A stretch of 61,409 bases of DNA from assembly GCA_005798445.1 (NCBI GenBank), contig SYJG01000371.1:1-61409 (forward strand), given 5' to 3'. Origin of the DNA: Planctomyces sp. Its GTDB lineage: Bacteria; Planctomycetota; Planctomycetia; Planctomycetales; Planctomycetaceae. Positions 157-58,470 of the stretch are shown in pieces (position 1 is the stretch's first letter; each line of letters begins with the position of its first letter). Made by a program: the position numbers and the translations under genes. The notes under the pieces are model-generated. The model was not told where the DNA came from, searched no databases, and saw only the letters and a list, made by a program, of their open reading frames with translations.

Positions 157-1741
157 AGGCGATCAGCTCGTGTCTCACTTGGCCGTCGCCGGCGATTGGG
201 TACGGGCGGTTTTGTTGGTCGTGAATGACGGCGTGTGGGTTCAGGCCGAGCAGATGAAACGTCGTCGCGTGGATGTCCTTCGGAGAGATCGGCGTGTCTG
301 CGACGGTTCCGCCGATGCGGTCGCTGTGGCCGACGACCGCTCCACGATGCGTCCCTCCACCGGCGAGCGCCATCGAATAGACCTGCGACCAATGGTGCCG
401 AGCGGCTCCGACCGGCTTCGAGTCGATCTGCGGCGTGCGGCCATGCTCGCTCATGCAGAGCACCAGCGTTTCGTCGAGCAGCCCCCGTTGTTCGAGGTCG
501 AGGATCAGTGCGGAGAACGCCGCGTCGAAGCCGGGCAACAAGTACTGCTTCATCCGCGGGTAGTGGTTTTGGTGAGTGTCCCAAGCTCCGCTGAAGTAGG
601 TGCCGTAGGCGTCCCAGAAGACCGAGACGAACTGCGTCCCCGACTCGACCAATCGCCGCGCGGCGAGGCACGACTGACCGAACAGCGTGTGACCGTATCG
701 CTCGCGCAGCGTCGGAGCTTCGCGGCTGACGTCGAGCGCCTCGCGCGTTTTTGCCGACGTTAGCAGCGACAACGCTCGGCCTTGATTGGACGAGTACGAT
801 CGCTCGGCCAGCGTGTCGGCAGACAGTCGAGCGGCATCGAACTGCGACAGCAACTCGCGCCGCAGGTTGAATCGGTCGAGCGACACGTTCTCGGCGAACC
901 GGCCCGCTCCGTCAAACACGAAGCGGCAATCGGGATCAACGGCCGCGTACGGGTCGGAGTATTCCTTCGGCTGCTCGTGGCGAGCCTTCGGAGCGATTCG
1001 CAGCGACTTCCCCTCGAACTTCGCCCACACCGGATCGAACCGCTGTCCGAGGAACGCGGCATACGGCCCGGCGAGAACTCCGAGATCATCGACCTGCGAA
1101 TTGAAAACCCACGGCAAACCGACATGTCGCGGAGTCCATTCGGTGCTCGGCCCCGTTACTGAAGCGGCAGAGCCATTGAGCGGCACGGCGCTAGCCGCCG
1201 GGGTCGGCACCCGCGTCTGACCGGCGGCTAGCGCCGTGCCGCTCATGCTCCAAAAATAATCGGCAATCGAACCGAAGTACGGCCAGTGCACCGGATCGCG
1301 CGGCTTCGTTTCGATGTCGGTCGTGTAGGTCGGCATGCCGCTCAGTGCGTACGCGACGCAGTGCAGCGGGAACGGATGCGTCATCGACCGGACGATCGTC
1401 AGCCGATCCGTAATCTTCGACGTCAGCGGCAGCCCCTCACAGATCGGCACGCCGGAGAGCGCGGACGGGATCCCTTTCAGCTCACCTTGAATCTCGGCGG
1501 GAGCGTCGTTTTTTGGATCGAACGTCTCATGCTGCGAAGCGGCCCCGAACAGAAAGAGCATGATGCAGCGTTTGGCTTTTCCGAAGCCCCGCAGCTCACC
1601 GCCGGTCGCGAGCGATTCTGCCGCCAGCGACGCGGCTCGCTCAGCCGTCAGTCCGTACAAACCCAGCCCGCCGATGTGCAGCAAATCGCGACGACTGATC
1701 CCGTCGCACAATCGCCGTTGAGAACCCAACAATCGCAACAT
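155..1741 (-). CDS. DUF1501 domain-containing protein (sulfatase-like fold, exported)
   Basis: About 528 residues from the ATG at 1741; an in-frame start 48 bases earlier is possible but adds a sequence unlike the family. The N-terminus has the short form typical of the family, with a twin-arginine-like SRRDLLHIGG segment followed by a hydrophobic, Ala-rich stretch, so Tat export is likely. Downstream are family signatures: FLFGAASQHETFDPK, the LPLTSKITDRLTIVRSMTH region, and near the C-terminus LVLCMSEHGRTPQ and GRxHHWSQVYSMALAGGG. DUF1501 proteins are abundant in planctomycetes and usually pair with DUF1549/DUF1553 proteins; here the downstream partner is an SMP-30-like gene instead. A perfect 24-bp inverted repeat at 1178-1244 is inserted in frame and adds about 22 residues rich in Ala, Gly and Pro. 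The biochemical activity is unknown. Confidence 0.85.
   Translation of the reverse strand: MLRLLGSQRRLCDGISRRDLLHIGGLGLYGLTAERAASLAAESLATGGELRGFGKAKRCIMLFLFGAASQHETFDPKNDAPAEIQGELKGIPSALSGVPICEGLPLTSKITDRLTIVRSMTHPFPLHCVAYALSGMPTYTTDIETKPRDPVHWPYFGSIADYFWSMSGTALAAGQTRVPTPAASAVPLNGSAASVTGPSTEWTPRHVGLPWVFNSQVDDLGVLAGPYAAFLGQRFDPVWAKFEGKSLRIAPKARHEQPKEYSDPYAAVDPDCRFVFDGAGRFAENVSLDRFNLRRELLSQFDAARLSADTLAERSYSSNQGRALSLLTSAKTREALDVSREAPTLRERYGHTLFGQSCLAARRLVESGTQFVSVFWDAYGTYFSGAWDTHQNHYPRMKQYLLPGFDAAFSALILDLEQRGLLDETLVLCMSEHGRTPQIDSKPVGAARHHWSQVYSMALAGGGTHRGAVVGHSDRIGGTVADTPISPKDIHATTFHLLGLNPHAVIHDQQNRPYPIAGDGQVRHELIA
1178..1244. repeat. Perfect 24-bp inverted repeat inside the DUF1501 gene
   Basis: Arms at 1178-1201 and 1221-1244 are exact reverse complements (start GAGCGGCACGGCGCTAGCCG) around a 19-base loop. 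The element is read through in frame by the DUF1501 gene (minus strand: MSGTALAAGQTRVPTPAASA). Other repeats in the window are built in the same way but have different arm sequences. Confidence 0.9.
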
Positions 1742-1948
1742 CGCGGTAGCCTCGGACAAAACTCGGTCGCGGCCAATACGCTGGCACAACGTACTGATGA
1801 GCCTGCGGACTGTCGAGCAGTTTCACTCGCAAAGTTTGTCTTGACGGTTCGGAATTCCAGGCACAGACTCATCGCCGCTTGGAGGCGCGGTCATCAGGGA
1901 CACGCGATGCCGAATCGCAACGGGATTTTTTTTCGCACGGAGGGTGAC

Positions 1949-2794
1949 ATGAAAAAGCATTTGCTCCAGATGTTGGGTGTCTTTTGTTTGGGCGTCGCGA
2001 CCGTTCCCGGAGTTCTGATCGGTGCTCGCTGGTGGCAGGACACCAAAGGTCATTCTCCAAAGTTTGTCGAGATTCAGCATGTCGATGCCAAGGCGGATTC
2101 CGACATCAGCATCGCTCAATCGGAACCGGCGTCTAACTTGGACGAACTTGAATCGCCGCCCCCCGCTCGCCCACATGTGGCCGACCACAAGCCGATTCGG
2201 AAAACAGCCGTCGTTGACAACGACGAATTCATCGTTGAAGCGAAGCCGCTGCAACTCGATTTCGATTCGGAGGACGAGCCGTCGGTGCTGGCCCAGAGCG
2301 CGCCGACCCGAAAGCCAGCCGAGGTGAGGTCGTCATTTGACGAATTTGAAGCACCGGCGTTTCGATCGTCGCACGAGCCCGAAACAGTTCGGGGAAAGCA
2401 GCGATCTACGCCGGAGGCTGCCAAGCCCGAACAGCCCGATGGAATCGAGTCACTCGCCGAACCCAATCTCTCGGACGAGCAGAAGGCCAAGCTGACGACA
2501 CTGCGAGAGAAGCTCGCCGAGTTGACCAAAGCCAAGGCGGAACTGGTCAACGAGCAAACGCTGGAGGAGACGATCTTCTCGCTGGAGAAGCAGATCTCCA
2601 ACTTGCACGCCGCTCAGAAGCTGCTGAGTGCTCAGCAAATTCTGCGAGCGCTCGCCGAAGAGTTCCCGGACAGCCCCGCCGCCGCCAAGGCCCAGCGGAT
2701 GCTCGAAGCGGCGGAGGAGAAGAAGAAAGCACCGAAGCCACTGAAACCGGTGCCAGATTCGTTCGATGAGGAGCCGGTAAGAATAAGGGGGTAG
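1949..2794 (+). CDS. Hypothetical membrane-anchored coiled-coil protein
   Basis: Predicted 281 residues. The ATG at 1949 is chosen because it follows a GGAGGG box (about 1939-1944) and opens a good membrane anchor or signal: MKKHLLQMLGVFCLGVATVP followed by GVLIGARWW. A much longer open frame upstream overlaps the divergent DUF1501 gene and is not credible. The middle (about residues 60-165) is acidic, Pro-rich and probably disordered. The C-terminal third (about 170-265) is a charged helical region, with EKLAELTKAKAELVNEQ and LEKQISNLHAAQKLLSAQQ, suggesting a coiled coil or one TPR-like hairpin ending in LAEEFPDSPAAAKAQRML. I do not recognise a family. It is divergent from the DUF1501 gene across a 207-base gap that must hold both promoters. 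Confidence 0.7.
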   Translation: MKKHLLQMLGVFCLGVATVPGVLIGARWWQDTKGHSPKFVEIQHVDAKADSDISIAQSEPASNLDELESPPPARPHVADHKPIRKTAVVDNDEFIVEAKPLQLDFDSEDEPSVLAQSAPTRKPAEVRSSFDEFEAPAFRSSHEPETVRGKQRSTPEAAKPEQPDGIESLAEPNLSDEQKAKLTTLREKLAELTKAKAELVNEQTLEETIFSLEKQISNLHAAQKLLSAQQILRALAEEFPDSPAAAKAQRMLEAAEEKKKAPKPLKPVPDSFDEEPVRIRG

Positions 2795-2803
2795 ATCGCG
2801 GGC

Positions 2804-2943
2804 GGCACAGCTTGCTTCAAGCTGTGTGCGCAGCATCGGAAACTCAAGAAAAACTTTCATTGGGAAAACCGAGGCTGATTCTGGTGACCGCGCGATCTTC
2901 AGTTTCCAATGCCTTCGGCACACAGCTTGAAGCAAGCTGTGCC
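2804..2943. repeat. 26-bp inverted repeat between the coiled-coil gene and purD
   Basis: Perfect arms at 2804-2829 and 2918-2943 (left arm begins GGCACAGCTTGCTTCAAGCT). Each arm also contains its own small palindrome around TTGCTTCAAGC, and inner blocks GGAAACT and AGTTTCC pair as well. The stem lies 9 bases after the stop of the upstream gene, so it may act as a terminator, though no T-run follows. Confidence 0.85.
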
Positions 2944-3035: not shown

Positions 3036-3110
3036 GGGAGGGTGAGGCTCCCGTCGAGCCGATCGTGTGCGGGTTGTCCAACGACGGCTCGGCGGGAGCC
3101 TCGCCCTCCC
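3036..3110. repeat. Imperfect 25-bp inverted repeat just upstream of purD
   Basis: Arms at 3036-3060 and 3086-3110 pair with two mismatches. The sequence family (GGGAGGGYGAGGCTCCCGYC) is the same as the repeat inside the kinase gene at 40146-40241. The right arm ends 22 bases before the purD ATG, so it could form a hairpin in the purD leader. Confidence 0.85.
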
Positions 3111-6768: not shown

Positions 6769-6780
6769 TTTCTGTTCTCC

Positions 6781-11342: not shown

Positions 11343-11344
11343 TG

Positions 11345-11496
11345 CCGCGAACGTAGCTGCCTCGCTCCCGCGAGGCAGAGCATTTGTTGAGCGACTCACG
11401 ATTTGGCCAAACGATGGCGAGCATGAACAAGTTTGTGAATGGGTGAGCCGTCGGTTTTAGCTCCGCCTCGCGGGAGCGAGGCGGCTACGTTCGCGG
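11345..11496. repeat. 36-bp inverted repeat filling the gap between convergent genes
   Basis: Arms at 11345-11380 and 11461-11496 (left arm CCGCGAACGTAGCTGCCTCG...) match closely; each arm is itself palindromic around CTCGCTCCCGCGAG. It starts two bases after the UDG stop and its last base abuts the SDR stop at 11497, so it occupies the whole gap. It may terminate transcription from both sides. Confidence 0.85.
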
Positions 11497-12261
11497 CTAT
11501 CGCAAAAACCTGCCGCCGTTGATGTCCAGCAGCGCTCCGTTGACGAACCGTGCTTCATCGCTGACCAGAAACCGCACGACTGAGGCGACCTCGTCGGCCG
11601 TGCCGTTGCGGCCCAGCGGCGTTTCGCGGCGGTACTGTTCCATTCGTTCGGGTGTCGTGAAGACTTCGTGATGCCGAGTCTCGATGACTCCCGGCATGAT
11701 CGCGTTCACGCGGACGTCGGGAGCCAGCTCGCGAGCCAGCGTTCGGGTCAGCACTTGCAGGCCCCCTTTCGCGACCGCGTATGGCCCGGCTCCGTTGGCT
11801 CCGCCGGTTTGCACGGAGAGCGACAAGTTGTTGACGATCGCGCCGTGACCGCTCCGCTTCAAATGCGGGATCACTCGCCGAGTGACGATGAACGCGCTGG
11901 TCAGATTCGTGTCGATGATCTGCCGCCACAGATCGAGCGGACAATCCTCGATCTTCCGCCGCTCGATCGGACTTCCCGCGTTGTTGACCAAGATGTCGAG
12001 CCGCCCCGCTGCTTCGACGAACTGATCGACCAATCGCCTCGCCTCGTCATCGCGGCTCAAGTCGGCCGGCAAAACGATCCCGTCACCGCCGAGTTGTCGG
12101 ATCGCCGCCAGTGTTTCATTCGCGCCATCGAGACTGCGATGACAATGCACTCCGACAAACACACCAGCGTCGGCGAGCGATTCCGCAACCGCGCGGCCAA
12201 TGCCTACACCGGCACCCGTCACAAGAGCTGCCCGACCAGCAAGCGAACCAGATTCCGGCAT
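11497..12261 (-). CDS. SDR family NAD(P)-dependent oxidoreductase (FabG-like)
   Basis: Predicted 254 residues, the standard length of classical short-chain dehydrogenases. The cofactor loop is TGAGVGIG near residue 16, followed by the structural NNAG motif near residue 92. The catalytic Tyr and Lys are in GPYAVAKGG (YxxxK), with the Ser contributed by the preceding NNLSLSVQ segment. The C-terminal VNAIMPGVIETR and FLVSDEARFVNGALLDINGG are typical. It reduces or oxidises a carbonyl or hydroxyl group using NAD(P)H; similarity to FabG and glucose dehydrogenase-like enzymes does not fix the substrate. It lies in the same direction as, and downstream of, the PQQ-propeller gene, with a repeat between them. 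Confidence 0.9.
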   Translation of the reverse strand: MPESGSLAGRAALVTGAGVGIGRAVAESLADAGVFVGVHCHRSLDGANETLAAIRQLGGDGIVLPADLSRDDEARRLVDQFVEAAGRLDILVNNAGSPIERRKIEDCPLDLWRQIIDTNLTSAFIVTRRVIPHLKRSGHGAIVNNLSLSVQTGGANGAGPYAVAKGGLQVLTRTLARELAPDVRVNAIMPGVIETRHHEVFTTPERMEQYRRETPLGRNGTADEVASVVRFLVSDEARFVNGALLDINGGRFLR

Positions 12262-12331: not shown

Positions 12332-13649
12332 AATCCTTCGCGAGCGAGACGCAGACGATTTCCTTGTCATTGCGAGCGAAACAGCACTTGTTTGCGAACG
12401 CCGGGTGTGACCAGATCACGGCGCGGCCGAAGCATTCCTGGGTCGGCTCCAGCACATGGAAGCGGCTGAGTTCCTCGTAACCGGCAGAACTGAGCTTCGC
12501 CAAAATCAGGTCGCCCGTTTCGCTGAAGAGGAAGTAGCGGTCCTGATGCTTCACGAGAAATGCCGTTCCGTGACTCGCCCGTTCGCCGGACTTGCCGGTC
12601 GTCGGAGTGTAGGTTTCCCACAGACGCTCACCGGTTTCGAGTTTGACTCCGCGTAGTGGGCCTTGCTGGCAATCGACTCCGTAAATCATCCCGCCATCCA
12701 GAATCGGCGTGCTGTTCGCACACGGGACGCCGTTGCGTGGGGTCTCCTTCCAAAGTAGCTCCGCTCCGGGCTTGTCGCTCGTCAGCTTGAGACACGCGCC
12801 GATGTTTCCGATGCTGCTGGCGAACAGCAAGTCGCCGAACTGACGGGGTGCCGTGATCGCCATATCGTATTGCGGGGCCAGATCGAACGACCACAGTTTC
12901 TTACCAGTTTCCGGATTCAGACTGTTGAGCTTGTTGGCATCCCAGATCAGCAGTTGCCGAGTCTTCGCTGCCTCAATGATCGTCGGCGGACAATAGCCGG
13001 GATGCCGAGCCTCGATCGCACGCCACAACTCTTTGCCGCTCTCCTTGTCGAACGCGACCGCCGTGCTCCCCTCACCGCCGACGACGCAGATCAGCTTGTT
13101 GCCATCGACCAGCGGATGAGCACAGAAACCCCAGATCGGCGAGTCGCACTTGTACTCCTTCTTCAGTTCCTTCGCCCAAACGACCTTGCCGGTGTCCGCG
13201 TTGAGGCAGTGCAGATGTCCTTCGGCTCCGAGCACATAGACCTTGCCATCCGCGACCGTCGGAGTCGCTCGCGGCCCAGCCGGATAGCTGATCGCGTATG
13301 GACAGTCGTATTCGTGCTTCCAAATCTCCTTGCCGGTCGCCGCGTCGAGACAGTGGATTCGCTCCTTGCCTTTCAGCTCCGCGCGCTGGCCGGGGTTGTT
13401 GAACTCTTTGCCGGACTCTTTCGCGAAGTCGGTGACGAAGACTTTCCCACCAGCGACCGCCGGTCCCGAATAGCCACCTGCGATCGGCACGCGCCACTTC
13501 ACCGGCAGCTTGTTTTCCGGGAAGACTTCGACCAGTCCCGTCTCGCGCCACTCACTGTCCCGCTTTGGGCCAAGCCACTGCGGCCAATCGTCCGCTCGAA
13601 CGGAACTGGTCAATCCGACGATTACAACGAGGCACATCCAACGATTCAT
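12330..13649 (-). CDS. PQQ-binding-like beta-propeller repeat protein, exported
   Basis: About 439 residues from the ATG at 13649. This start gives a clean signal peptide (MNRWMCLVVIVGLTSSVRA) followed directly by DDWPQWLGPKRDSEWRETG, the characteristic mature N-terminus of planctomycete PQQ-like propellers; the longer in-frame start would translate repeat DNA. Repeated blades show LDAATGKEIWKHEYD, LNADTGKVVWAKELK, FDKESGKELWRAIEA and LNPETGKKLWSFDLA, the Gly-Lys-x-Trp blade motif of the PQQ_2 family. Whether it binds PQQ or only shares the fold is unknown. Co-directional with the SDR gene downstream. Confidence 0.88.
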   Translation of the reverse strand: MNRWMCLVVIVGLTSSVRADDWPQWLGPKRDSEWRETGLVEVFPENKLPVKWRVPIAGGYSGPAVAGGKVFVTDFAKESGKEFNNPGQRAELKGKERIHCLDAATGKEIWKHEYDCPYAISYPAGPRATPTVADGKVYVLGAEGHLHCLNADTGKVVWAKELKKEYKCDSPIWGFCAHPLVDGNKLICVVGGEGSTAVAFDKESGKELWRAIEARHPGYCPPTIIEAAKTRQLLIWDANKLNSLNPETGKKLWSFDLAPQYDMAITAPRQFGDLLFASSIGNIGACLKLTSDKPGAELLWKETPRNGVPCANSTPILDGGMIYGVDCQQGPLRGVKLETGERLWETYTPTTGKSGERASHGTAFLVKHQDRYFLFSETGDLILAKLSSAGYEELSRFHVLEPTQECFGRAVIWSHPAFANKCCFARNDKEIVCVSLAKD

Positions 13650-13667
13650 GGCTCGGTCCTTCCCGAA

Positions 13668-13743
13668 GGTCAGGCTTTCCAGCCTGACCCGAATTGGCAA
13701 TCGACGATCTCTGGTTGACCGAGTCAGCCTGGAAAGGCTGACC
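13668..13743. repeat. Inverted repeat upstream of the PQQ-propeller gene
   Basis: Arms at 13668-13689 (GGTCAGGCTTTCCAGCCTGA...) and 13723-13743 pair with two compensated differences, and each arm is itself a palindrome around GCTTTCCAGC. It lies in the 277-base divergent gap between the PQQ-propeller gene and the DUF1549 gene. Confidence 0.8.
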
Positions 13744-13926
13744 GACGGTGCGATCGCGCGGATTGTACTGGCTGGGAGAACTCTGAAAACCAAGCCCATG
13801 CCGCGAGATTTCCAGCATAGAATTGTCCCACCGCCGGACGATGCGTTAGCATCTGGCCGTTCTGATGCGTCCGGTGAGGACCACTCACGGACCTGCCTTC
13901 CCTCCTCCTACCGAACATTCCCGCCC

Positions 13927-16251
13927 ATGAACTTGCCCTCGCGAAGCACCCACCGAGTGCTCGTCGGCTTCGGCTTGAAGTCGTGGCTGCTCGGCATGTT
14001 CGTTCTTGGTGGGACACTGACGCAGAGTTTCGCGGCTGACGCGGCGAAGTTTCGGCCGTTCCATTTTGAGACCGATGTCGTCTCGATCCTGTCTCGCTTC
14101 GGCTGCAATTCGTCGGGATGTCACGGCAAGGCGGAAGGGCAGAACGGCTTCAAGCTATCGATCTTCGGCTTCGACCCGAACGCCGATCATGTCGCGCTGA
14201 CCAGCGAGAGCCGCGGTCGCCGCACGAACCCGAACGCTCCCGAAAAGAGTCTGCTGCTCCAAAAATCCTGCGGTGATGTCCCGCATGGCGGCGGAGTTCG
14301 CATTCGCAAAGACTCCGACGAGTACCGTGTCCTCCGCAACTGGATCGCGAACGGCTTGCCGTTTGGCGAGCCGACCGCTCCGCGCGTCACCTCGATCACC
14401 GTCACGCCGCGCGAGCAGGTGATGGGGCTCAGGACGACTCAACCACTGAAGGTCGTCGCGAAGTTCGACAACGGGTTCGAGGAAGAGGTGACTCGGCACG
14501 CCAAGTTCCAGTCGAACAACGACGGCCTCGCGTCGGTCGATGAGCACGGTCTGGTCTCGACTCACGAGACCCCCGGCGACGTAGCCGTCATGGCCAACTA
14601 CCTCGGCGCAGTCGATGTCTTCCGAGTGCTGATCCCGCGACCCAACGACAGTGCTCGGCGCGGGTCTCCTAACCCCGCCGCAGCTCCGACCGCAGGTCTC
14701 CCCAATCCCAGGGCAAATGCCGGATCGGGAGACCTTCGGTCAGACGAGCGGCGGGGTCAGGAGACCCGCGCCGAGCGCGTGATGCGCAACTTCATCGACC
14801 CGCTCGTCGAATCCAAACTCGCCAAGCTCAACATCCAGTCGAGCGAACTGTGCTCTGACGAAGATTTCTTGCGGCGAGCATTCCTCGACGTCATCGGCAC
14901 GCTGCCTAAGCCCGACGAAGTTCGCAAGTTCCTTGATGACAAACAGCCTAATCGCCGAGCACGTTTGATCGACGAACTGATCAAGCGGCCGGAGTACGCC
15001 GACTACTGGGCGCTGAAATGGTCCGATCTGCTGCGTGTCGAACGTCCAACGCTCGGACATGCCGGAGCCAACGGCTACTACCGCTGGATTCGCGACAGCT
15101 TCGCGACCAACAAACCGTTCGATCGGTTCGCTCGTGAATTGCTGACCGCCGAAGGACTCTTGCGTGATCAACCGGCCGGCTACGTCTTTAAGGCGGTCAA
15201 TCAGCCGGGCGAGCAATCCGCGACGATCTCGCAAGTGCTGCTCGGCGTGCGGATCGACTGCGCGAAGTGTCACCATCATCCGTTCGACCGCTGGAGCCAA
15301 ACCGACTACTTCGGCATGGAAGCGTTCTTCACGCAGATCACGTTCAAGCCGACTCCGCAGGGGGAGATGCTGCTGACTCGCGACTCCGGCCCCACGAAAC
15401 ATTCGCGAACCGGCGAGACAGTCTTCGCTCACGCACTGGGCGAACCGTCGCCTGAGAAATCTCCGGAAGGCGACCGCCGCAAATTGCTCGCCGAGTGGAT
15501 GACGTCGCCGAAGAACACGTTCTTCGCTCGCAACATCGTAAATCGCGCGTGGGCACATTTCCTCGGCCGTGGCTTGATCGAACCAGTTGATGACGTCCGG
15601 CTGACAAACCCGCCGACGAATCCGGAACTGCTCGATGAGCTGGCCGCGAAGTTCATCGAGTCTGGCTTCGACGTCCATCAACTCATCCGCACGATCACCG
15701 CCTCGCGAACGTACCAGCGATCCGCAAAGCCCAACGTCACGAACGAACGGGACGAGCAGAATTACTCGCGGGCGTTGCTCAAGCGGCTGGATGCGGAAGT
15801 CCTGTTCGATGCCGTCTGCCAGGCGACCGGCACGTCCGAAAAATTCGCCGGCGTTCCCGACGGCTCGCGAGCGATCCAACTTTGGGACAGCCAAGTCAAA
15901 CACGACTTCCTGAAACTCTTCGGCCGCCCCGTCCGAGCCACCGCCTGCGAATGCGAACGAGCGACGGAGCCGAGCGTTGCCCAAGTCCTGCACGTCCTGA
16001 ATTCCCCCGAACTGCAATCCAAACTCTCCGACGAATCTGGCACCGTCGCCCGGCTTGCCCGCCGCTACCCGTCCGACAATTCCGCCTTGATCGACGAACT
16101 GTACCTGACCATCGTCAGCCGCCTGCCGACCGCCGACGAGAAGGCCGCCGCCACGAAATATCTGCAAGATCACGCATCCGCTCGCCGCCATGCGGCCGAA
16201 GATTTAGCTTGGAGCTTGCTCAACTCGTTGGAGTTTGTGTTCAATCACTGA
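13927..16251 (+). CDS. DUF1549/DUF1553 protein with cytochrome-like N-terminus
   Basis: About 774 residues from the ATG at 13927; the longer frame upstream is read from repeat DNA. The N-terminus has a hydrophobic export signal (LLGMFVLGGTLTQSFAADA). Near residue 60 comes RFGCNSSGCHGKAEGQNGFK, the degenerate haem-like segment often found ahead of DUF1549. Around residue 135-185 a bacterial Ig-like region (ITVTPREQVMGLRTTQPLKV) precedes DUF1549 (AFLDVIGTLPKPDEV to about 440) and a CAKCH motif near residue 445. The C-terminal DUF1553 block contains NIVNRAWAHFLGRGL and TASRTYQRS. A 29-bp inverted repeat at 14653-14776 is inserted in frame between the Ig-like and DUF1549 parts. The DUF1501 gene follows after 12 bases; this pair is a standard planctomycete operon of unknown function. 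Confidence 0.9.
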   Translation: MNLPSRSTHRVLVGFGLKSWLLGMFVLGGTLTQSFAADAAKFRPFHFETDVVSILSRFGCNSSGCHGKAEGQNGFKLSIFGFDPNADHVALTSESRGRRTNPNAPEKSLLLQKSCGDVPHGGGVRIRKDSDEYRVLRNWIANGLPFGEPTAPRVTSITVTPREQVMGLRTTQPLKVVAKFDNGFEEEVTRHAKFQSNNDGLASVDEHGLVSTHETPGDVAVMANYLGAVDVFRVLIPRPNDSARRGSPNPAAAPTAGLPNPRANAGSGDLRSDERRGQETRAERVMRNFIDPLVESKLAKLNIQSSELCSDEDFLRRAFLDVIGTLPKPDEVRKFLDDKQPNRRARLIDELIKRPEYADYWALKWSDLLRVERPTLGHAGANGYYRWIRDSFATNKPFDRFARELLTAEGLLRDQPAGYVFKAVNQPGEQSATISQVLLGVRIDCAKCHHHPFDRWSQTDYFGMEAFFTQITFKPTPQGEMLLTRDSGPTKHSRTGETVFAHALGEPSPEKSPEGDRRKLLAEWMTSPKNTFFARNIVNRAWAHFLGRGLIEPVDDVRLTNPPTNPELLDELAAKFIESGFDVHQLIRTITASRTYQRSAKPNVTNERDEQNYSRALLKRLDAEVLFDAVCQATGTSEKFAGVPDGSRAIQLWDSQVKHDFLKLFGRPVRATACECERATEPSVAQVLHVLNSPELQSKLSDESGTVARLARRYPSDNSALIDELYLTIVSRLPTADEKAAATKYLQDHASARRHAAEDLAWSLLNSLEFVFNH
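14653..14776. repeat. 29-bp inverted repeat inserted in frame in the DUF1549 gene
   Basis: Arms at 14653-14681 (GCTCGGCGCGGGTCTCCTAA...) and 14748-14776 pair with one mismatch over 29 bases. It encodes a roughly 41-residue Arg/Pro/Ala-rich segment (starting SARRGSPNPAAAPTAG) at a domain junction. Confidence 0.9.
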
Positions 16252-17619: not shown

Positions 17620-17685
17620 GCGCGACGCGGCCGAAATCTTGAGTTGCAACGGGGCGATCAAATCACGACAAGTCGCACCGCAATT

Positions 17686-17778
17686 TGTAACCCGACGCGC
17701 AAGCGAGGGCGGGCGCTTCAGAACGCAAGGAATTGGTACCTGGTGAAGCGTTCGCCCTCGCTTACGCGTCGGGTTACA
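17686..17778. repeat. 35-bp inverted repeat (GTAACCCGACGC family)
   Basis: Arms at 17686-17720 (TGTAACCCGACGCGCAAGCG...) and 17744-17778 pair almost completely. The same family occurs at 31058-31162, 47298-47387 and, in variant form, 57113-57172. It lies 66 bases after the DUF1501 stop. Confidence 0.88.
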
Positions 17779-17825
17779 AGCGATGCAGTTTCACAAACTG
17801 GCCTGCCCCAAAGGAGTGATCTGTC

Positions 17826-22149: not shown

Positions 22150-23650
22150 CGCAGACAGCAAATCAAGACTTACCGACACAGGCGAGCCGGAGGGCGTTAG
22201 CCCCCGGACAACGATGCCCGTCCGGGGGCTAACGCCCTCCGGCTCGCCTGGAGAGACTGGCTACGGAACGATGACTCGTCGGCAAATGCTGGCGGCGTCG
22301 GCACTGGGTTTCGGCACGCTTGCGCTGCGCGGGATCGCCGCCGAGCGAGCATCTGGCCTCGCGCCTCAGCAGTCGCACACTCAACCGCGAGCGAAGGCGG
22401 TCGTGATGCTCGTGCAAAACGGCGGGCCGAGTCAGATGGATTTGCTCGATCCCAAGCCCGAACTGACGAAACGGGCCGGCCAGACGATGTCGGTCGAGAC
22501 GTTTCAAATGGGGAACTCCGACAAGCTGATGGCCTCGCCGCTGGCGTTCCGCAATTACGGCGAGAGCGGCTTGGAGATGTCCACTCTGCTGCCGCATCTT
22601 GGATCACTCGCGGACGAACTGTGCTTGGTGCGGTCGATGTACTCGGAGCACAACAACCACACCGAAGCGTTGGTGATGCTCAACACCGGAAAGATTTTTC
22701 CGGGACGGCCCGCGCTCGGTTCGTGGGTCAGCTATGGTCTGGGGACGGAGAATCGCAACCTGCCGGCGTACATCGTGCTCCGCGATCCGGAGGGCTACAA
22801 CACGAGCGGTACGTTGCTCTGGCAGAACGGCTGGTTGCCGGCCATGTATCGCGGGACCGAGGTCTCCTCGCAGGGGACGCCGGTTCTCAACCTGCAACCC
22901 GCAACGCCGATCGCGCCGGCGGTGCAGCGAGAGAAGCTCGACCTGCTCGCGAAGCTCAACGAAGAGCATCGGCGGCAGTTTCCGTTCGACCACGAGCTGG
23001 AGACACGCATCCGCAATTACGAACTCGCCGCGCGCATGCAGCTCGCTGCCGGCGAGTTGCTCGACTTGTCGAAGGAGTCCGCCGACACGCGCACGCTGTA
23101 CGGACTCGACGATCCGGAAACGGCCAGCTACGGCCTGCGCTGCTTGATGGCCCGACGGCTCATCGAGAACGGCGTGCGGTTCGTGCAGGTCTTTCCGCCC
23201 GTCAAGCCGCAGTTCCAACCGTGGGACGCGCACAGCAACACGAAGACCGAGAACGAAGCGATCTGCCGCAAATGCGATCTCCCGTCGGCGGGCTTGATCC
23301 GTGATCTTCGGCAACGGGGCTTGCTCGACAGCACCATCGTGCTGTGGTCGGGCGAGTTCGGTCGGCTCCCCGTCTCTCAAAACGGCAAAGGGCGCGACCA
23401 CAACCGCAATGCCTTCACCGCGATCCTCGCCGGCGGTGGTTTCAAGCCCGGACACGCTCACGGCGCGACCGACGAGGTCGGCTACCGAGCCGCCGAGCAC
23501 CGAGTCAGCGTCCCCGACCTGCACGCGACAATCCTGCACCAACTCGGCCTCGACCACGACCGTCTGACGTATCCCCATCACGGCAACGACGAGACGCTGA
23601 CCGACTCGCGAGTCACCGAGGCCCGCGTGGTGACGGAACTCTTGGCCTGA
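22139..23650 (+). CDS. DUF1501 domain-containing protein with a repeat in its N-terminus
   Basis: 503 residues if it starts at 22139, where it overlaps the DUF1549 stop. An internal ATG at 22271 would start MTRRQMLAASALGFGTLALR, a textbook Tat signal, and would give about 459 residues. Between the two starts lies a perfect 29-bp inverted repeat, so either the repeat lengthens the N-terminus ahead of the Tat motif or the true start is 22271. Later signatures are VMLVQNGGPSQMDLLDPKPE, VRSMYSEHNNHTEALVMLNT, GLRCLMARRLIENGVRFVQV, LWSGEFGRLPVSQNGKGRDH and FTAILAGGGFKPGHAHGATD. As elsewhere, it is paired with a DUF1549 protein. Confidence 0.9.
   Translation: MSRNADSKSRLTDTGEPEGVSPRTTMPVRGLTPSGSPGETGYGTMTRRQMLAASALGFGTLALRGIAAERASGLAPQQSHTQPRAKAVVMLVQNGGPSQMDLLDPKPELTKRAGQTMSVETFQMGNSDKLMASPLAFRNYGESGLEMSTLLPHLGSLADELCLVRSMYSEHNNHTEALVMLNTGKIFPGRPALGSWVSYGLGTENRNLPAYIVLRDPEGYNTSGTLLWQNGWLPAMYRGTEVSSQGTPVLNLQPATPIAPAVQREKLDLLAKLNEEHRRQFPFDHELETRIRNYELAARMQLAAGELLDLSKESADTRTLYGLDDPETASYGLRCLMARRLIENGVRFVQVFPPVKPQFQPWDAHSNTKTENEAICRKCDLPSAGLIRDLRQRGLLDSTIVLWSGEFGRLPVSQNGKGRDHNRNAFTAILAGGGFKPGHAHGATDEVGYRAAEHRVSVPDLHATILHQLGLDHDRLTYPHHGNDETLTDSRVTEARVVTELLA
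22180..22249. repeat. Perfect 29-bp inverted repeat at the start of a DUF1501 gene
   Basis: Arms at 22180-22208 (AGGCGAGCCGGAGGGCGTTA...) and 22221-22249 are exact complements around a 12-base loop. It is open in the reading frame of the DUF1501 gene and encodes GEPEGVSPRTTMPVRGLTPS. It sits between two possible start codons, so the hairpin may affect which is used. Confidence 0.9.
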
Positions 23651-29801: not shown

Positions 29802-29910
29802 GTCACCGCCGACGCCCGCCTGTCTGGACTTTGCGATACACTCCTCGGCCTTCGCCCTTGAGTTTTGTCGGTGAGGGCTGGTGGCTGTCTTGCGGAGAGT
29901 GTTCGCTTCG

Positions 29911-31062
29911 ATGTCGTCTCATTTTCTGTTTGTCGTTTGCCAGGTCGGCTCGGAAGCCACGGTCAAGAACGAGGTCGCCCGAAAGCACCCGAGCTTTCGG
30001 TTTTCGTTTTCGCGGCGCGGGTTTCTCACGTTTCGCATTCCCGACGAGGTCGCTCGCGATCGCAAATTTGAGTTGAATTGTGCGTTTGCTCGGACGTGGG
30101 GCTTCTCTCTGGGAAAAGCGGTCGGGACCGACGGGCAGCAGTTGGTTCGCGATTTCTGGAAGCCGTTCGCCGAGCGTTATCCGGCGGATGTGTTGGCCCA
30201 GTTCAAGCATCTGCATGTCTGGCAACGCGATCGGTTCGTTCCGGGAGACTCTGATGTCGAACCGGGAATCACTCCACTGGCCGAGGGCATCGGAGAGTTG
30301 ATCCTGGATGATCGCACCTCGTCGGCGAGCGGCTGGGCGTCAGCCCACCGAGATTCCTCGACGACATCTGACCTGCATGAACTCGGTGGGCCGACGCCCA
30401 GCCGCTCGCCACTTCCACTGAATGAAGTCGCCCAAGTTGGCGATCGCGTTTTGGATTGCGTCATCGTCGAGCCGAACGAATGGTGGTTCGGTTGGCATCG
30501 AGCGTGTTCCGTCGAGACTTGCTGGCCGGGGGGCGTACCGGGCGTGGACGCGCCGGACAACATGATTTCGCGAGCGTATCTGAAGATGGGCGAGTCGTTG
30601 TTGTGGTCCGAGCTACCGATTCAGCCGGGCGATCGGTTTGTCGAGATCGGCAGTTCTCCGGGCGGTTCGTGCCAAGCGTTGTTGGATCGCGGCTGTCTCG
30701 TGACCGGCATCGACCCCGCCGAGATGGACCCGCTGTTGCTGGCCAATCCGAACTTCACCCATCTGCGATCGCGAGCGAAGAGAGTCGAACGGAACGACTT
30801 TCAATCGTTTCGCTGGCTGGCGATGGATGCGAACGTTGCTCCGAAATACACGCTCGACACGGTCGAGGCGATCGTGACTCAACCCAACGTGCGGATCGAA
30901 GGTCTGTTGCTGACGCTCAAGCTGACCGACTTGGCTCTGGCCGCTGAGCTGCCGTTGTTTCACAAGCGCATCCGATCGTGGGGCTATCGCCGAGTGCGTG
31001 CTCGGCAATTGGCGTTCAATCGGCAAGAGGTGTGCGTGGTTGCGACTGAACGCACCATGTAA
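29911..31062 (+). CDS. RlmM-like SAM-dependent rRNA methyltransferase
   Basis: About 383 residues from the ATG at 29911, 12 bases after GGAGAG; an in-frame start 30 bases earlier is possible. The C-terminal half is a Rossmann-type methyltransferase: motif I is FVEIGSSPGGSCQALLDRGC, and VTGIDPAEMD and WLAMDANVAP supply further SAM and catalytic positions. The N-terminal half (SHFLFVVCQVGSEATVKNEV, FSRRGFLTFRIPDE) resembles the THUMP-like region of RlmM, which 2'-O-methylates C2498 of 23S rRNA. A 29-bp inverted repeat at 30324-30410 is inserted in frame between the halves and adds about 30 residues. The TAA stop lies inside the left arm of another repeat. It is convergent with the 3-methyladenine glycosylase gene. 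Confidence 0.75.
   Translation: MSSHFLFVVCQVGSEATVKNEVARKHPSFRFSFSRRGFLTFRIPDEVARDRKFELNCAFARTWGFSLGKAVGTDGQQLVRDFWKPFAERYPADVLAQFKHLHVWQRDRFVPGDSDVEPGITPLAEGIGELILDDRTSSASGWASAHRDSSTTSDLHELGGPTPSRSPLPLNEVAQVGDRVLDCVIVEPNEWWFGWHRACSVETCWPGGVPGVDAPDNMISRAYLKMGESLLWSELPIQPGDRFVEIGSSPGGSCQALLDRGCLVTGIDPAEMDPLLLANPNFTHLRSRAKRVERNDFQSFRWLAMDANVAPKYTLDTVEAIVTQPNVRIEGLLLTLKLTDLALAAELPLFHKRIRSWGYRRVRARQLAFNRQEVCVVATERTM
30324..30410. repeat. 29-bp inverted repeat inserted in frame in the methyltransferase gene
   Basis: Arms at 30324-30352 (GGCGAGCGGCTGGGCGTCAG...) and 30382-30410 pair with one mismatch. It encodes ASGWASAHRDSSTTSDLHEL and GGPTPSRS between the N-terminal and methyltransferase domains. 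A half copy of the same family appears at about 61360-61390. Confidence 0.9.
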
Positions 31063-31162
31063 CCCGATGCGTCAGCGAGGGAGTGAGGAATCTTCAAGGG
31101 CATCGTCACGTTCTAACCACGTAAACGCTTTGCACGCTCCCTCGCTGACGCTTCGGGTTACA
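31058..31162. repeat. 26-bp inverted repeat at a convergent junction, overlapping a stop codon
   Basis: Arms at 31058-31083 (TGTAACCCGATGCGTCAGCG...) and 31137-31162 pair with one mismatch. The TAA stop of the methyltransferase gene (31060-31062) lies in the left arm. It belongs to the GTAACCCGA family and could terminate both converging transcripts. Confidence 0.88.
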
Positions 31163-39483: not shown

Positions 39484-42400
39484 ATCTCATTGACGACCGC
39501 ACCGATTTCGACGACGCCTCCGCCGAGGTGGCTGAGAATATCGACGAAGCCTGCGATCGGTTTGAGCGCGAATGGAAATCGGGCAACGCACCACGCATCG
39601 AAAACTACCTGGACGAGGCGGAGGCGGAGCAGCGCGACGTCTTGCGGCAAGAGTTGTTGCGCGTCGAGCTGGCCTACCTGCACAAGCTGGGGCAGCCGAT
39701 CGCCGAGGATGAATATCTGGCGCGATTCCCTTCGTTGAATGCCGAATGGTTTCGGCGTGCGATTCAACGCTCGAAACCGAAACGCGAAACGCTGGCCGGG
39801 GTGCTGGGCGATTTTCAGTTGCAGTACGAGATCGGCCGGGGCGGCATGGGGTCGTTTACGCCGCGCTGCAAGTCTCACTGAATCGTCGCGTCGCGGTGAA
39901 GGTGTTGCCCTCGTCGGCGATGACCGACTCGCGTCAGTTGCGGCGGTTCCAGAATGAATCGCGCGCGGCGGCCTCGCTGCATCATCCGCACATCGTGCCG
40001 GTCTTCGCGGTCGGTGCCGATCGCGGAGTCAACTTCTTCGTGATGCAATTGATTGACGGACAAACGCTGTCGCAGCGAATCAAGTCGATCGGGTCCAGCG
40101 AACTCACCCGGACGGCGATGTCGCGGCCGACGGGCGATTCGAAGAGGGAGGGCGAGGCTCCCGCCGAGCCGCGAACGGCAACTGCTCCCGCCGAGCCGCG
40201 AACGGCGGATAAAAACGGCTCGGCGGGAGCCTCGCCCTCCCGGACCAGTCCCGCGTCGCTGAGCATCGAGCAATACCGCGAGGTCGCTCGGCAAGGGATG
40301 CAAGTGGCTCAGGCGCTCGAACACGCGCACTCGATGGGGATCGTGCATCGCGACGTCAAACCGAGCAACCTGTTGATCGACCGCGCGGGCAAGCTGTGGG
40401 TCACCGATTTCGGATTGGCTCGCATCGCCAACGACCTGAGCATGACGATCAGCGGTGATGTGCTCGGCACGCTGCGGTACATGAGTCCCGAACAAGCTCT
40501 GGCAAAGCACGGGCTGGTCGATCATCGGACGGACATCTACAGCCTGGGAGTCACTCTGTACGAGTTGCTCACGCTGCGTCCGGCCATCGACGGCAAAGAC
40601 CGAGGCGAGATTCTGCACAAGATCGCCTTCGAGGAACCGCCCGAACCGCGCCGAGTCAATCCGCACATCCCGCTCGATCTGGAAACGATCCTGCTAAGGT
40701 CAATCGCGAAGGAGCCGCATCTGCGCCATCAGTCGGCCGAAGAGTTGGCCGACGACCTGCGTCGATTCGCGGACGATCAGCCGATCAAAGCTCGGCGGCA
40801 AACTCGCTGGCAGAGTTTCGTGCGCTGGCAACGCCGCAACCGAGCACTCTCGGCCGCGCTGGCGTTGACCGTCGCCGTGATCGTCGTGGCCAACGTGCTG
40901 ATCACCTGGAAATGGAGCGAAGAGCGCTTGGCCAATTCCACCGCGCGGATCGCCGAGCAATCGGCCAAGCGTTCGGAACGGCTCGCTCGCGATGCCGAGC
41001 AACTCGCCAGACACGCGGAGCTGCAAGCGACTCAACGGGCGGATGAGTTGCAGCGCAGCGTGTACCTGCAACAGATCGCGCGCAGCGAGCAGGAGTGGTG
41101 GAGCAACAACGTCGGCCGAGCGGAACAGATTCTAGATCGGTGTCCGCCGGAACTGCGGCATTGGGAGTGGGGCTATTTGAAACGGCTCTGCAATTCGGAG
41201 ATTCGATCATTCGTCGCCCATGACGGACCAATGTTCGCGGTCGCATACTCACCGAACGGCCGGACGGTCGCGGCGGGTGGACAATCAGGAAAGATTCATC
41301 TGTGGGACATTCCAACGGGTACTGAGCGAACGCTGTTGGGACACAGCGCCGGTGTGCAATCTGTCGCGTTTAGTTCCGACGGACAGCAGATGGTTTCCAC
41401 TGGGTCGTCTTGGGCAGAGAAGATTCCAGGCGAAGTGAAAGTGGGGGATGCCACCTCGGGACAGGAACTGGAGACGTTTCCGATCGAGAAAGGAATCAGT
41501 GTGACGGATGCGAAGTTCTCGCCGGATCGGCGTTATCTGGCAGTCCCGTTGTGGAATACCGCGGTCTGGTTGATCGACATGGAAACCAAACAGATCAGCG
41601 AACTCAGTGGCTATGGTTCGAGCGTCAAGACGGTCGTTTTTTCGCCAGACAGTCGGACGGTCTTTGCGGGTGGATGGGGTGGCAAGATCGTCGCCTGGGA
41701 TGTCGCGACGCGGAAAATCACCAAGACATTGCTGGGCCACACCGGGGATGTTGTCGGACTGGCGGTCCATCCCAACGGGAAGCTGTTGGCCTCGGCGAGC
41801 TGGGATCACACGATCCGGGTGTGGACTCTCGACCTGCCGGCCGATCCCAAGCCGCGGGTCTTGACCGAGCATTCCGGGATCGTGAACGAGGTGACGTTTT
41901 CTCCCGATGGAAGTCAACTGGCCTCAGCGGGTGAAGACGGTGCCGTGAATGTTTGGGAGACGAAGTCGTGGAAAACGACAACCACTCTGCGCGGTCACGA
42001 TGGCGTGGTGCATCACGTCTCGTTCAGCCCTGGCGGCAAATCCGTCGTGAGCACGGGGCAGGACGGCCAACTCAAGCTGTGGGATCTGACTCGTTCACAA
42101 CTGGGCGTGGTGGCGACGGGGACCGGACAACTGCAACGCAAGGTGGTGTTTCGCGCGGACGGTACACGGTTCTATGTGTCATCGGTCTCGCTGCCAGCTC
42201 GCGATCCTGACGGCTATGTGACGTCGCATGACTCCGACACGGGAAAACAACTCCGCGTGATCGGCCGCCGCCCTGGTGGCTTTCGCACGGTGGCCGCTGA
42301 TCCCGATGGCCAGTTTGTCGCCGCCGATTCAGACATCGATATTCAACTGTGGGACGCAGCCACCGAGAAGCCGCTCAGAGAACTCAAAGGCCACGCCAGC

Positions 42401-43780
42401 AAAGTCTCCGCCATTGCGTTCTTGTCCGGAGGAATCCTCGTCTCCGGAGCCGACGACGGAACCGTGAAGCTTTGGCGAGCGGCCACCGGCGAACTGATCC
42501 ACGAACTTGAGCCGCGAGTCGGTCCGGTGACGCAGATCGCCGCCGAGGCTCAAGAAAGTGTTTTCGCGATCGCCGGAAACGAAGGCCAACTCGCCGTGTG
42601 GCGACTGACGACCGGCGGTCTTGAAGAACAACAAGCGCTGCGCCGTGACGTCGGCGGTCCGATTGCGTCTTTGGCCTGTTCGTCGCGCGACAAGACGCTA
42701 GCAGTGGGATGCGCGAACGGCCACATCCGACTCTGGAATCTCTCGTCGGGGACCGAACTTCCCGCGATCAAAGGTCACACCGATGCGGTCGTGAGCCTGG
42801 ACTTCTCGCCCGACGGCCGGCGTCTGGCATCGGGAGGCCAGGAAGGAGCGGCCGTGCTGTGGGACACTCAAAGTGGTCAAGAAGCCTTGATCCTGCGACG
42901 TCAACTCAGAAGCTTGAACGGCGTCGCGTTCAGCCCCGACGGTCAACGACTCGCCGCCATCGCTTCCCACGCCGCGCGAGACATTCGAATCTGGGATTCC
43001 TCCGCGCGATCAACCGATGATTCGTCCACAAGGCTCAAGGCATGGCAACTCGCGGAAGCGTCCGGCGCGGAATCGTTACGCTGTTGGAATGTGGCCATTG
43101 CCCATCTGGACGCGTTGATCGACTCGTCGGCTCCAGACGGCGACTTGTGGAAACGGCGCGGCAACTGTCACGCCGAGCTTTGCGATTGGAAGGCAGCGAT
43201 GGCCAACTACGCCCGCACCTGCGAGCTGGCCCCGGCCAGCATCGATCACTGGTATCGCCGTGCCGCCGCCTGCCTCGGAGCCAACGACCTTGGAGAACAC
43301 CGTCACGTCGTCGCCGCCATGTTGAAGCAGTTTGAGAACACTCATGCTGTCGGAATCGCCAGCCCGATGCTGTATGCCACGACGATGTGCTCGCAGCCCC
43401 CTGTGGAACGAGACGAGTTTCAGCGACTCGCACAACTCGCCGTCAACGCCTTCGCGGGCAACCAACGTCTGGTCGGCGCGGTGCGATACCGATTAGGCGA
43501 CTTCACCGGAGCTCTCGACTCGTTCGACGAAGCCGCCCCCAAGTTCGGCCCGCGCGCCTGGGACTTGTGCTTCCGAGGAATGTGCCGACACAAACTCGGT
43601 GACTCGACCGCCGCCGCCAAGCACTTCCAGGAATGCGATGCCTGGATCGAAGCGGCCGAACGCCAATGGAAAGACCGCTCCAACACATCACCACGATGGA
43701 TCCGTTGGGAAGAACGAGTCGAAGTTCTCCACCTCCGCCGCGAAGCCGAAAGTCTTCTCAAGCAGGTTCCCAAGCCGTAA
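39480..43780 (+). pseudogene. Ser/Thr kinase with WD40 propeller, split by a one-base frameshift in the glycine loop
   Basis: The first frame starts at 39480 (ATGA overlap with the sigma factor gene) and runs MNLIDDRTDFDDASAEVAEN to YEIGRGGMG, then leaves frame. A second frame picks up exactly at 39851 with VVYAALQVSLNRRVAVKVLP, so a -1 shift, or one missing G in the GGGG run at 39848-39851, restores GRGGMGVVYAAL. The joined product is about 1,433 residues: an N-terminal helical region, a kinase domain (about 115-395) with VAVKVLP, GIVHRDVKPSNLL and TDFGLAR, a membrane segment near 457-477, a coiled coil, WD40 repeats (about 575-1,180) such as GHTGDVVGLAVHPNGKLLAS, and a TPR-like C-terminus. 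An inverted repeat inserts residues EGEAPAEP...GSAGASPS into the kinase domain. It may be a pseudogene, a sequencing error or a recoded gene. Confidence 0.85.
40146..40241. repeat. Perfect 26-bp inverted repeat inserted in the kinase domain
   Basis: Arms at 40146-40171 (GGGAGGGCGAGGCTCCCGCC...) and 40216-40241 are exact complements; a partial second copy of the left arm lies between them. Same family as 3036-3110. The translation REGEAPAEPRTATAPAEPRT and GSAGASPSRT sits between the DGQTLSQRI and SIEQYREVARQ helices of the kinase, a surface-loop position. Confidence 0.92.
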
Positions 43781-43823: not shown

Positions 43824-43898
43824 TGTAGCCCGACCCCTTGTGGGTCGGTCGATTCGCCATCGATCGCAATCATCCAGGCCACAAGGGCCTGGGCTACA
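43824..43898. repeat. 25-bp inverted repeat between convergent genes
   Basis: Arms at 43824-43848 (TGTAGCCCGACCCCTTGTGG...) and 43874-43898 pair with compensated differences; each arm is itself palindromic around CCTTGTGG. It lies in the 243-base gap between the convergent kinase and unrecognised genes. The same family occurs at 58380-58470. Confidence 0.82.
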
Positions 43899-47297: not shown

Positions 47298-47387
47298 AAA
47301 CCCGAAGCGTGAGCGAGGGCGAGTGCTTCACCAGACCTTGAATGGCAAGTGTTCTGGAGCGCTCGCCCTCGCTCACGCTTCGCGTTA
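47298..47387. repeat. Inverted repeat of the CCCGAAGCGTGAGCGAGGG family
   Basis: The left arm starts near 47298 (AAACCCGAAGCGTGAGCGAG...) and the right arm ends near 47387; pairing is imperfect. The 47120-47456 gap holds this repeat and a GTTAGGC box but no gene. It is related to the repeats at 17686 and 31058. Confidence 0.78.
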
Positions 47388-57112: not shown

Positions 57113-57172
57113 TAGCCCGAAGCGCCAGCGAGGGGTTGTTTTTAAGAAACCCCTCGCTCGCGCGTCGGGCTA
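57113..57172. repeat. 25-bp inverted repeat at the end of the epimerase gene
   Basis: Arms at 57113-57137 (TAGCCCGAAGCGCCAGCGAG...) and 57148-57172 pair with a few mismatches around a 10-base loop. The right arm overlaps the TAG stop at 57170-57172 of the epimerase gene. It could act as a terminator or as an attenuating hairpin ahead of the Gfo/Idh/MocA gene. Confidence 0.85.
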
Positions 57173-58090: not shown

Positions 58091-58224
58091 GGTCGCTTCC
58101 ATTTCGTTCATACCGAAACCAGTCATCTTGATAGTGTTCGATCCGCGACTGATTTTCGAGTGCCACGACAGCCCCGCACCCATCCGGCCTGCCCCGGATG
58201 GTGAATATGATGGTGAAAAAAAGC

Positions 58225-58278
58225 CCCCCCACTTCTCCCTTTCCTCCGCCTGCGGCGGAGGAAAGGGAGAAGCGGGGG
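58225..58278. repeat. Hairpin of about 25 bp in the intergenic region
   Basis: Arms CCCCCACTTCTCCCTTTCCT (ending at 58250) and the complementary GGCGGAGGAAAGGGAGAAGC (from 58254) form a near-perfect stem with a three- to four-base loop. It lies in the 551-base divergent gap 58091-58641, which contains this, the repeat at 58380-58470 and no gene. Confidence 0.85.
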
Positions 58279-58379
58279 GAGTGGGAACGGCATCGACTAG
58301 CCCACCATCGGCATCACCAACGGCACGAGGCCGTTGGGGTCGAAACTCAGAGGCTCTCCGAAAAGTGGTTCTTGCTTCC

Positions 58380-58470
58380 GTAGCCCGACCCCTTGTGGGT
58401 CGGAGGATTTGATTTTCCTGAGGAATTGACGCTCATTCAAAATCCTCCGACCCACAAGGGGTCGGGCTAC
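58380..58470. repeat. Perfect 30-bp inverted repeat (TAGCCCGACCCC family)
   Basis: Arms at 58380-58409 (GTAGCCCGACCCCTTGTGGG...) and 58441-58470 are exact complements. Same family as 43824-43898. A small palindrome (CAACGGCACGAGGCCGTTG) also occurs at about 58318-58336. Confidence 0.92.

Follow-up and report, generated by a model that had tools for sequence, protein, structure and literature searches.

Known systems and the palindromes of the window

Palindromic repeats that lie inside bacterial genes have been described in several systems, and here we compare with them the palindromic elements of one planctomycete contig, C344, which was analysed at its full length of 61,409 nt (the window) and belongs to a draft Planctomyces sp. 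genome (7.96 Mb, 553 contigs, completeness 90.45, contamination 5.34). These elements are REPINs, i.e., inverted pairs of repetitive extragenic palindromic (REP) hairpins. They are very probably moved in trans by family-specific REP-associated tyrosine transposases (RAYTs), with in-gene insertions surviving in tolerant loops where the reading frame is kept. In-frame intragenic REPs are already in print, and the kind is known. The accessible text of PMC6006769 reports REPs inserted in frame within tnpA-REP genes, raises the possibility that linkers or loops take insertions without harm and gives atypical REP feet for subclasses 2.6 and 3. In that of PMC3733652, REP dimers within open reading frames (ORFs) encode 20-30 residues, with most in Opitutus terrae and Rickettsia conorii; Planctomycetes, R. 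baltica included, are among the carriers, and two Xanthomonas species have different REPs at about the same recB site. The Rickettsia palindromic elements are summarised in PMC6649704.

As far as these texts describe them, the REPtrons (PMC6006769) and the present elements are alike in inverted REP pairs, a family-specific flanked TnpA-REP gene and high copy number, but three families here (fam0, fam2 and fam3, the last being the GEAPAEP family) lack the GT[AG]G foot and a large share of the elements lies in frame inside genes. The insertions in subclass 2.4 tnpA-REP genes described there are likewise in frame, in a peripheral variable region, whereas here various genes are the hosts. With the intragenic REPs as presented in PMC3733652, our elements share the in-ORF dimers of 20-30 residues and the recB-type sharing of sites, to which we add orthologues with empty sites, a RAYT for 6 of 9 window families and a randomised analysis of recurrence at loops. 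The initial annotation of the window had likened its palindromes to the Rickettsia palindromic elements. In-frame insertion into ORFs was indeed found, the elements themselves being REPINs; the likeness, as mobile palindromes in coding sequence, is one of description (going by the accessible text of PMC6649704 and PMC3733652), and here a candidate mobilising enzyme is at hand. In the literature surveyed, supplements and subscription papers aside, we met neither different families at the same loops beyond recB nor a GEAPAEP family, and likewise neither the planctomycete scale, a GEAPAEP RAYT, loop recurrence with empty sites nor the use of an element in one phase.

Palindrome families and their structure

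Using arms of at least 20, a mismatch of at most 15% and a loop of at most 150, we detected 19 inverted repeats in the window; none turned up in any of its 10 order-3 Markov shuffles. About 17 had been annotated initially, and for the five placed in genes the coordinates agree with ours within one base. The elements are given below, with the strand for those read within a gene.

1177..1245, minus strand: fam2 REPIN in a DUF1501 gene, read SGTALAAG...PAASAVPL
3036..3110: fam3 (GEAPAEP family) REPIN at the 5' edge of the called gene 3067-4416, absent in G006, the sole relative aligned
11344..11497: fam4 GTAG-type REPIN, intergenic; fam4 also flanks a RAYT in contig C473 of the same genome
12277..12331: fam1b REPIN, intergenic; fam1b flanks a RAYT in G010 (L322)
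14653..14776, plus strand: fam8 palindrome in frame just before a DUF1549 domain, read RRGSPNPA...GQETRAE
17685..17779: fam1 REPIN, intergenic; the close variant fam1c flanks a RAYT in G001 (L343)
22179..22250: fam0 REPIN; a DUF1501 gene probably starts after it, at 22271, with the element in the 5' leader
27797..27868: fam5 palindrome, intergenic, from inverted-repeat clustering
30324..30410, plus strand: fam0 REPIN in frame in a methyltransferase-like gene, read SASGWASAHRD...GGPTPSRSP
31058..31162: fam1 REPIN, intergenic, from inverted-repeat clustering
40146..40241, plus strand: fam3 REPIN in frame in a kinase domain linker, read REGEAPAEPR...GSAGASPSR
43824..43898: imperfect GTAG REPIN, 74% complementary, whose left arm is identical to that of the element at 58378 (GTAGCCCGACCCCTTGTGGGTCGG family)
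47299..47386: fam1 REPIN, intergenic, from inverted-repeat clustering
57113..57172: fam1 REPIN, intergenic, from inverted-repeat clustering
58378..58472: GTAG REPIN of the GTAGCCCGACCCCTTGTGGGTCGG family with perfect 33-nt arms; the family flanks a RAYT in G010 (L306)
61360..61390: lone fam0 REP arm near the contig end, repeat family D11

The window repeats at 2800, 4420, 6781, 19726 and 58225 were tied to no family, and some of them look simple or imperfect.

A sample of 893 kb from this genome, in 61 stretches, contained 215 inverted repeats. This sample comprised the window, contigs picked by number, further parts of long contigs and eight contigs with Y1 transposases, and consequently leans towards Y1-transposase contigs. 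Single-linkage clustering on shared 11-mers gave clusters of 36, 29, 10, 10, 10, 9, 9, 9 and 8 repeats, followed by many small ones; the ten largest take in 12 of the 19 window repeats, the other 7 falling outside them. The existence of several palindrome families, first proposed from the window alone, is thus borne out across the genome. According to a gene caller based on codon usage, 129 of the 215 repeats are intergenic, 64 are intragenic and 22 lie across a gene edge, and at least one palindrome is carried by 39 of the 503 called genes of at least 150 aa. Rough scaling from this Y1-leaning sample (64 intragenic per 893 kb) would lead one to expect about 570 intragenic palindromes genome-wide. 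In a grouping made after looking at the data, the intragenic share in this genome was 3/57 for fam1, fam4, fam5 and fam7 together and 32/64 for fam0, fam2, fam3 and fam8. Palindromes were also seen at the contig ends of L015, L045, L046, L051 and L064; they may break the assembly, in which case the true numbers would be higher.

The elements of the main families consist of paired short hairpins in opposite orientation with a spacer, which is the REPIN layout. The fam3 arm, GGGAGGGCGAGGCTCCCGCCGAGCC, occurs 154 times genome-wide with at most 2 mismatches (78 forward, 76 reverse), the same pattern read backward 0 times, and a modal length of 80 nt was found in 37 of 58 sampled fam3 elements. Among 137 elements of five families (58, 31, 11, 19 and 18), none has 4-nt direct repeats at its edges, so that target duplication of the kind left by miniature inverted-repeat transposable elements was not seen, and flank preference amounts to at most 0.7 bit per position. 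As for the GT[AG]G foot, it is GTAG in fam4, fam6 and the GTAGCCCGACC family and GTGG in fam8b and fam9.

RAYT genes flanked by the palindrome families

A search for a REP-associated tyrosine transposase in the genome, which the initial annotation had recommended, was successful. The PF01797 profile gave 8 Y1 matches in this genome and, used alone, missed the transposase of the GEAPAEP family; an alignment of four Y1 proteins found with it gave 7 matches, some of them new, with the GEAPAEP transposase among them. This protein was recovered too by the NCBIfam model REP_Tyr_transpos (NF047646), which had 92 matches in 11 of the 12 genomes of the genus; all five proteins scanned with it scored E<=1.8e-15, each under the 80-bit cut-off. 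The same palindrome lies on both sides, within 600 bp, of 31 of 91 RAYT places (two matches in one gene merged), and the same procedure gave 22 of 3000 at random places of this genome alone, with the REPtrons still included. By a search with 13 consensus patterns (at most 3 mismatches, within 500 nt of a RAYT), two-sided flanking was observed for fam3, fam4, fam6 and fam8b in this genome and for fam0, fam1b, fam1c, fam9 and the GTAGCCCGACC family in other genomes of the genus. In the random control, 10 of 4000 places of this genome were two-sided over the 13 patterns (fam6 6, fam8 2, fam4 2), none of them for fam3. The nine window families considered are fam0, fam1, fam1b, fam2, fam3, fam4, fam5, fam8 and GTAGCCCGACC; within the six that have a two-sided RAYT, fam1 was counted via its close variant fam1c and fam0 via one locus at up to 3 mismatches. 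For fam0, fam1 and fam8, the link to a RAYT is not fully direct. With family-specific RAYTs for most window families, the mechanism of mobilisation, none having been known to the initial annotation, is known in outline. In G004 and G002, the RAYT genes L192, L194, L198, L200 and L202 are near palindromes starting GGGGTCAGG or GGGGTCGGG, another non-GTAG family, and a palindrome of this type was also noticed inside the BatA gene of G010 and G002.

The GEAPAEP RAYT is a 159-residue ORF (L209:2267-2746, contig C143) flanked by fam3 REPs, one before and three after. It matches REP_Tyr_transpos with 57 bits at E=1.8e-15, its best match in the PDB is TnpArep 4er8 (E=1.9e-4), and a Pfam scan of it gave no match. 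Its motifs, DHIH and YTQNNP, correspond exactly to no subclass in Table 1 of PMC6006769. At an E-value of 1e-10, it was detected in 23 of 397 genomes of the class, its own included, and the other 11 genomes of the genus had 2.8e-8 at best. We examined 22 of the 24 listed matches outside its own genome (21 genomes), omitting L276 (a weak match in a 1345-residue frame) and L278 (the second half of a split gene). The fam3 arms were present on both sides at 13 of these 22 loci (at most 4 mismatches, within 450 nt; the random control used 3 mismatches), and these 13 are spread over four families of the class. Of the 15 loci with 46% identity or more, 13 were two-sided (all but L259 and L268); of the 7 with 41% or less none was, and several of them have GTAG-type palindromes in place of fam3. 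In the group at 46% or more, L262 alone has NHIH as its HUH motif, the others having DHIH or DHLH; the Y motif is Y[TV]xxNP where found, the regular-expression extraction being blank for several RAYTs.

Insertions in genes and their empty sites

Four genes of the window carry an insert within the coding sequence:

155..1789, minus strand: DUF1501 gene with the fam2 insert (Pfam PF07394, E=8.5e-70)
13510..16251, plus strand: DUF1549/DUF1553 gene with the fam8 insert (Pfam PF07583, PF07587)
29881..31062, plus strand: FtsJ-like methyltransferase gene with the fam0 insert (Pfam PF01728, E=2.9e-6)
39746..43780, plus strand: protein kinase gene with WD40 repeats and the fam3 insert (Pfam PF00069, PF00400)

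Five such in-frame palindromes had been proposed, and these four stand, while the fifth, at 22179-22250, probably belongs to a 5' leader. From residue 45 onward its frame reads MTRRQMLAASALG, which we take to resemble a twin-arginine translocation (Tat) signal peptide; the start of this second DUF1501 gene is therefore probably the ATG at 22271. The gene caller also starts the gene inside the element. The inserts had further been placed at domain junctions or loops. Linker and loop positions were seen, and some inserts are inside domains: the DUF1501 insert splits one domain match and the kinase insert lies within the kinase domain.

The coding frame is the same before and after the elements at 1177, 14653 and 30324, and orthologues in the genus lack the palindrome in question. 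The comparison of orthologues with and without insert, another check suggested at the outset, was positive. None of 11 orthologues in the genus has the 26-residue insert of the DUF1501 protein, nine of them having 88 to 98% and two 56% identity in the C-terminal segment; in a second DUF1501 alignment, from which the partial match L252 was excluded, the insert is absent from all 16 records, 9 of which are genomes already counted. The AlphaFold model of this protein has a mean predicted local distance difference test (pLDDT) score of 60.2, and residues 186-216, most of the insert, are below 50, as are 221 of 544 residues overall, so that this mediocre model lends weak support. Of the 10 orthologues of the methyltransferase gene aligned within the genus, 6 have no insert at the site, and G010, G004, G002 and G003 have a related fam0-type insert in the same loop and another frame (EPEGASPRLD vs SASGWASAHRD); the orthologue search obtained none from G007. 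Among intergenic elements, the fam4 one is missing from G003 and G009 and reduced to a short remnant in G005, and the fam1b one at 12277 is older, because G003 has similar sequence at the same place. The DUF1549 palindrome is absent from the relatives G003, G009 and G005, which hold other sequence of 62-67 nt between the flanks, a state that may or may not be ancestral. For the kinase element (40146), which is in frame, the linker is variable in 7 aligned relatives and no clean empty site was found by a search that matched mostly paralogues.

A frame test without a requirement for openness judged 206 of the 215 elements, 9 being too near an end. Strongly coding flanks on the same strand reach both edges of 36 elements. 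The frame runs on through 33 of these, 30 being open and 3 interrupted by a stop, and it changes in the other 3; the remaining judged elements have flanks on opposite strands (2) or are not coding up to both edges (168). At random places in the same test, 843 keep the frame and 21 change it. For fam3 the in-frame test demands openness and sets no length, and the 58 elements fall into 11 in frame in genes, 15 other, 30 without coding flanks and 2 at edges. All 11 in-frame copies read EGEAPAEP though the arm is stop-free in three phases (probability under uniform choice, 1.7e-5), and the fam3 elements of L019 and L045, which are intragenic by a looser test and fail the stricter one, share this phase. 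For the 3' arm, the reading is GSAGASPS or close to it in 7 copies and ARREPRPP or close to it in 4. Elsewhere, fam8 uses one phase (5/5), fam0 is split 7, 5 and 1, and fam2 3 and 2. The modal 80-nt length is found in 2 of 11 in-frame fam3 copies and in 35 of 47 of the rest (p=0.0009).

Recurrence at the same loops

In two genes, different palindromes recur at the same loops in different species. One loop of a BatA/VWA gene (L055, 694 aa) holds fam0 here, distinct fam0-like palindromes in G005 and in the second copy of the gene in this bin (C386), other palindromes in G010, G002, G006 and G009, an apparent remnant in G011 and none in G003. Two further BatA/VWA loops and four loops of a DUF7133 gene behave similarly. 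In the randomisations, same-site copies sharing two 7-mers were collapsed and counted once. For BatA/VWA (9 sequences; 15 elements, 10 after collapse), 10 cross-species pairs lie within 12 residues, against a random mean of 1.51, and a value as high was reached in 2 of 5000 randomisations; for DUF7133 (5 intact-frame sequences; 16 elements, 12 after collapse), there were also 10 pairs, with a random mean of 0.96 and 0 of 5000 as high. A previous uncollapsed version (29 and 16 pairs sharing fewer than two 9-mers within 12 core residues, 0/2000 as high) counted elements common by descent repeatedly and was superseded.

The DUF7133 gene itself (L043:3028-8223, minus strand, 1732 aa) has six palindromes, its orthologues being L219-L222. 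One orthologue appears at identical coordinates and score in G000:C341 and G007:C112, and the bin and G007 thus seem to share a contig; together with second gene copies on C309 and C386, this suggests a mixed bin, perhaps with a second strain. Ribosome bypass was considered for the G006 DUF7133 copy and rejected: one of its three frame changes is at a palindrome, and we read the copy as a pseudogene or assembly error.

Proposed mobility and tolerance, and alternative explanations

The mechanism that we propose would start from a REPIN as a non-autonomous element built of two inverted REP hairpins, on whose single-stranded hairpin DNA a family-specific RAYT (TnpA-REP, HUH/Y1) would act in trans, with insertion leaving no target duplication. 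Many REPIN families would have been active in this genus, and coding insertions would pass selection only where the loop is tolerated and the frame kept; the same few loops would be colonised repeatedly by different families because selection spares only such sites. The inserts would turn into short low-complexity protein segments. The data show the families, their copy number, the RAYT neighbourhoods, the presence or absence of elements among species, the keeping of the frame and, in two genes, the recurrence at loops; from these we infer movement of the REPINs by these RAYTs, translation of the inserts, and protein tolerance, not a DNA target, as what sets the loops.

Several observations weigh against this explanation or limit it. 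No two-sided palindrome was found at 60 of the 91 RAYT places; 13 of these 60 are within 400 nt of the end of a stretch. REPs of fam2 are on one side only of RAYTs in G007, and one-sided matches are common by chance (fam0 152 and fam2 51 of 4000 random places). The flanking-palindrome survey gave no RAYT link for fam5, of which the consensus search had no pattern, and RAYT loci were matched by the relatives fam8b and fam1c but neither by the window's fam8 nor by the fam1 consensus. The intragenic share varies by family (fam0 15/36 vs fam1 2/29, p=0.002), and the number of open frames does not account for it (Spearman 0.14, p=0.66). The gene caller is home-made, and the bin is a draft with 5.3% contamination, in which the match coordinates on one contig are those found on a contig of G007. 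Finally, BatA/VWA and DUF7133 were chosen for holding several elements and not at random, and the DUF7133 copies of G006 and G001, with broken frames, were left out of the randomisations.

The recurrent loops could instead be set by a DNA target preference of the transposases. There is a weak flank preference, e.g., T then C before fam3 arms, and unrelated families could have a common target such as a pre-existing hairpin; with different families in the same loops, the little flank information given above and no nested element seen at those loops (by eye only), we consider this unlikely. Far less probable is that ribosomes skip the palindromes (bypass) and leave them untranslated, for which the accessible text of PMC6649704 gives a precedent in yeast mitochondria. 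The elements do form hairpins, and 3 of the 36 same-strand cases have an internal stop and another 3 change the frame. The frame is kept in 33 of the 36, 30 of them open, and the in-frame fam3 copies not only use a single phase but also seldom have the modal length that prevails in the rest. An origin of the inserts by local low-complexity expansion or hairpin-templated replication errors, without mobility, is the least credible of all: some window repeats look simple (4420, 19726), and against it stand families common across the genome, the 154 fam3 arms compared with 0 for the reversed pattern, the RAYT linkage and the absence of inserts in orthologues.

Another question is why GEAPAEP is used in one phase. 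The element may have been selected to be harmless when translated and so be adapted to life in genes, as the single phase of all 11 in-frame copies of a three-phase stop-free arm could suggest. We regard this as rather unlikely, since selection in each host against the other, arginine-rich peptides predicts the same pattern; moreover, 30 of the 58 sampled fam3 copies have no coding flank, and fam0 and fam2 use three and two phases. It is conceivable, if on balance somewhat doubtful, that certain loops in this genus are standing landing pads with rotating REPIN families, so that RAYTs continually rewrite linkers, and that at least one family, GEAPAEP, has become protein-compatible with one benign frame. 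If true, this would be a self-renewing source of disordered protein segments.

GEAPAEP-like linkers in planctomycete proteins may be explained by the REPINs, which also set up a natural experiment on protein evolution: in the genes examined, close relatives carry peptides of different mobile elements, or none, in the same loop. Now that candidate RAYTs can be named, direct tests of how palindromes enter genes become possible, and the sequence can show which loops are permissive. Gene annotation and structure prediction of palindrome-bearing proteins are affected as well.

Other repeats of the window

Two further repeat regions were noticed. The 1945-residue ORF at 32015-37852 is rich in short direct repeats (families D1, D2, D5 and D8), which resemble repeats of the RTX (repeats-in-toxin) type. 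At 38243-38614, a 186-nt unit is present in two head-to-tail copies that are 84% identical.

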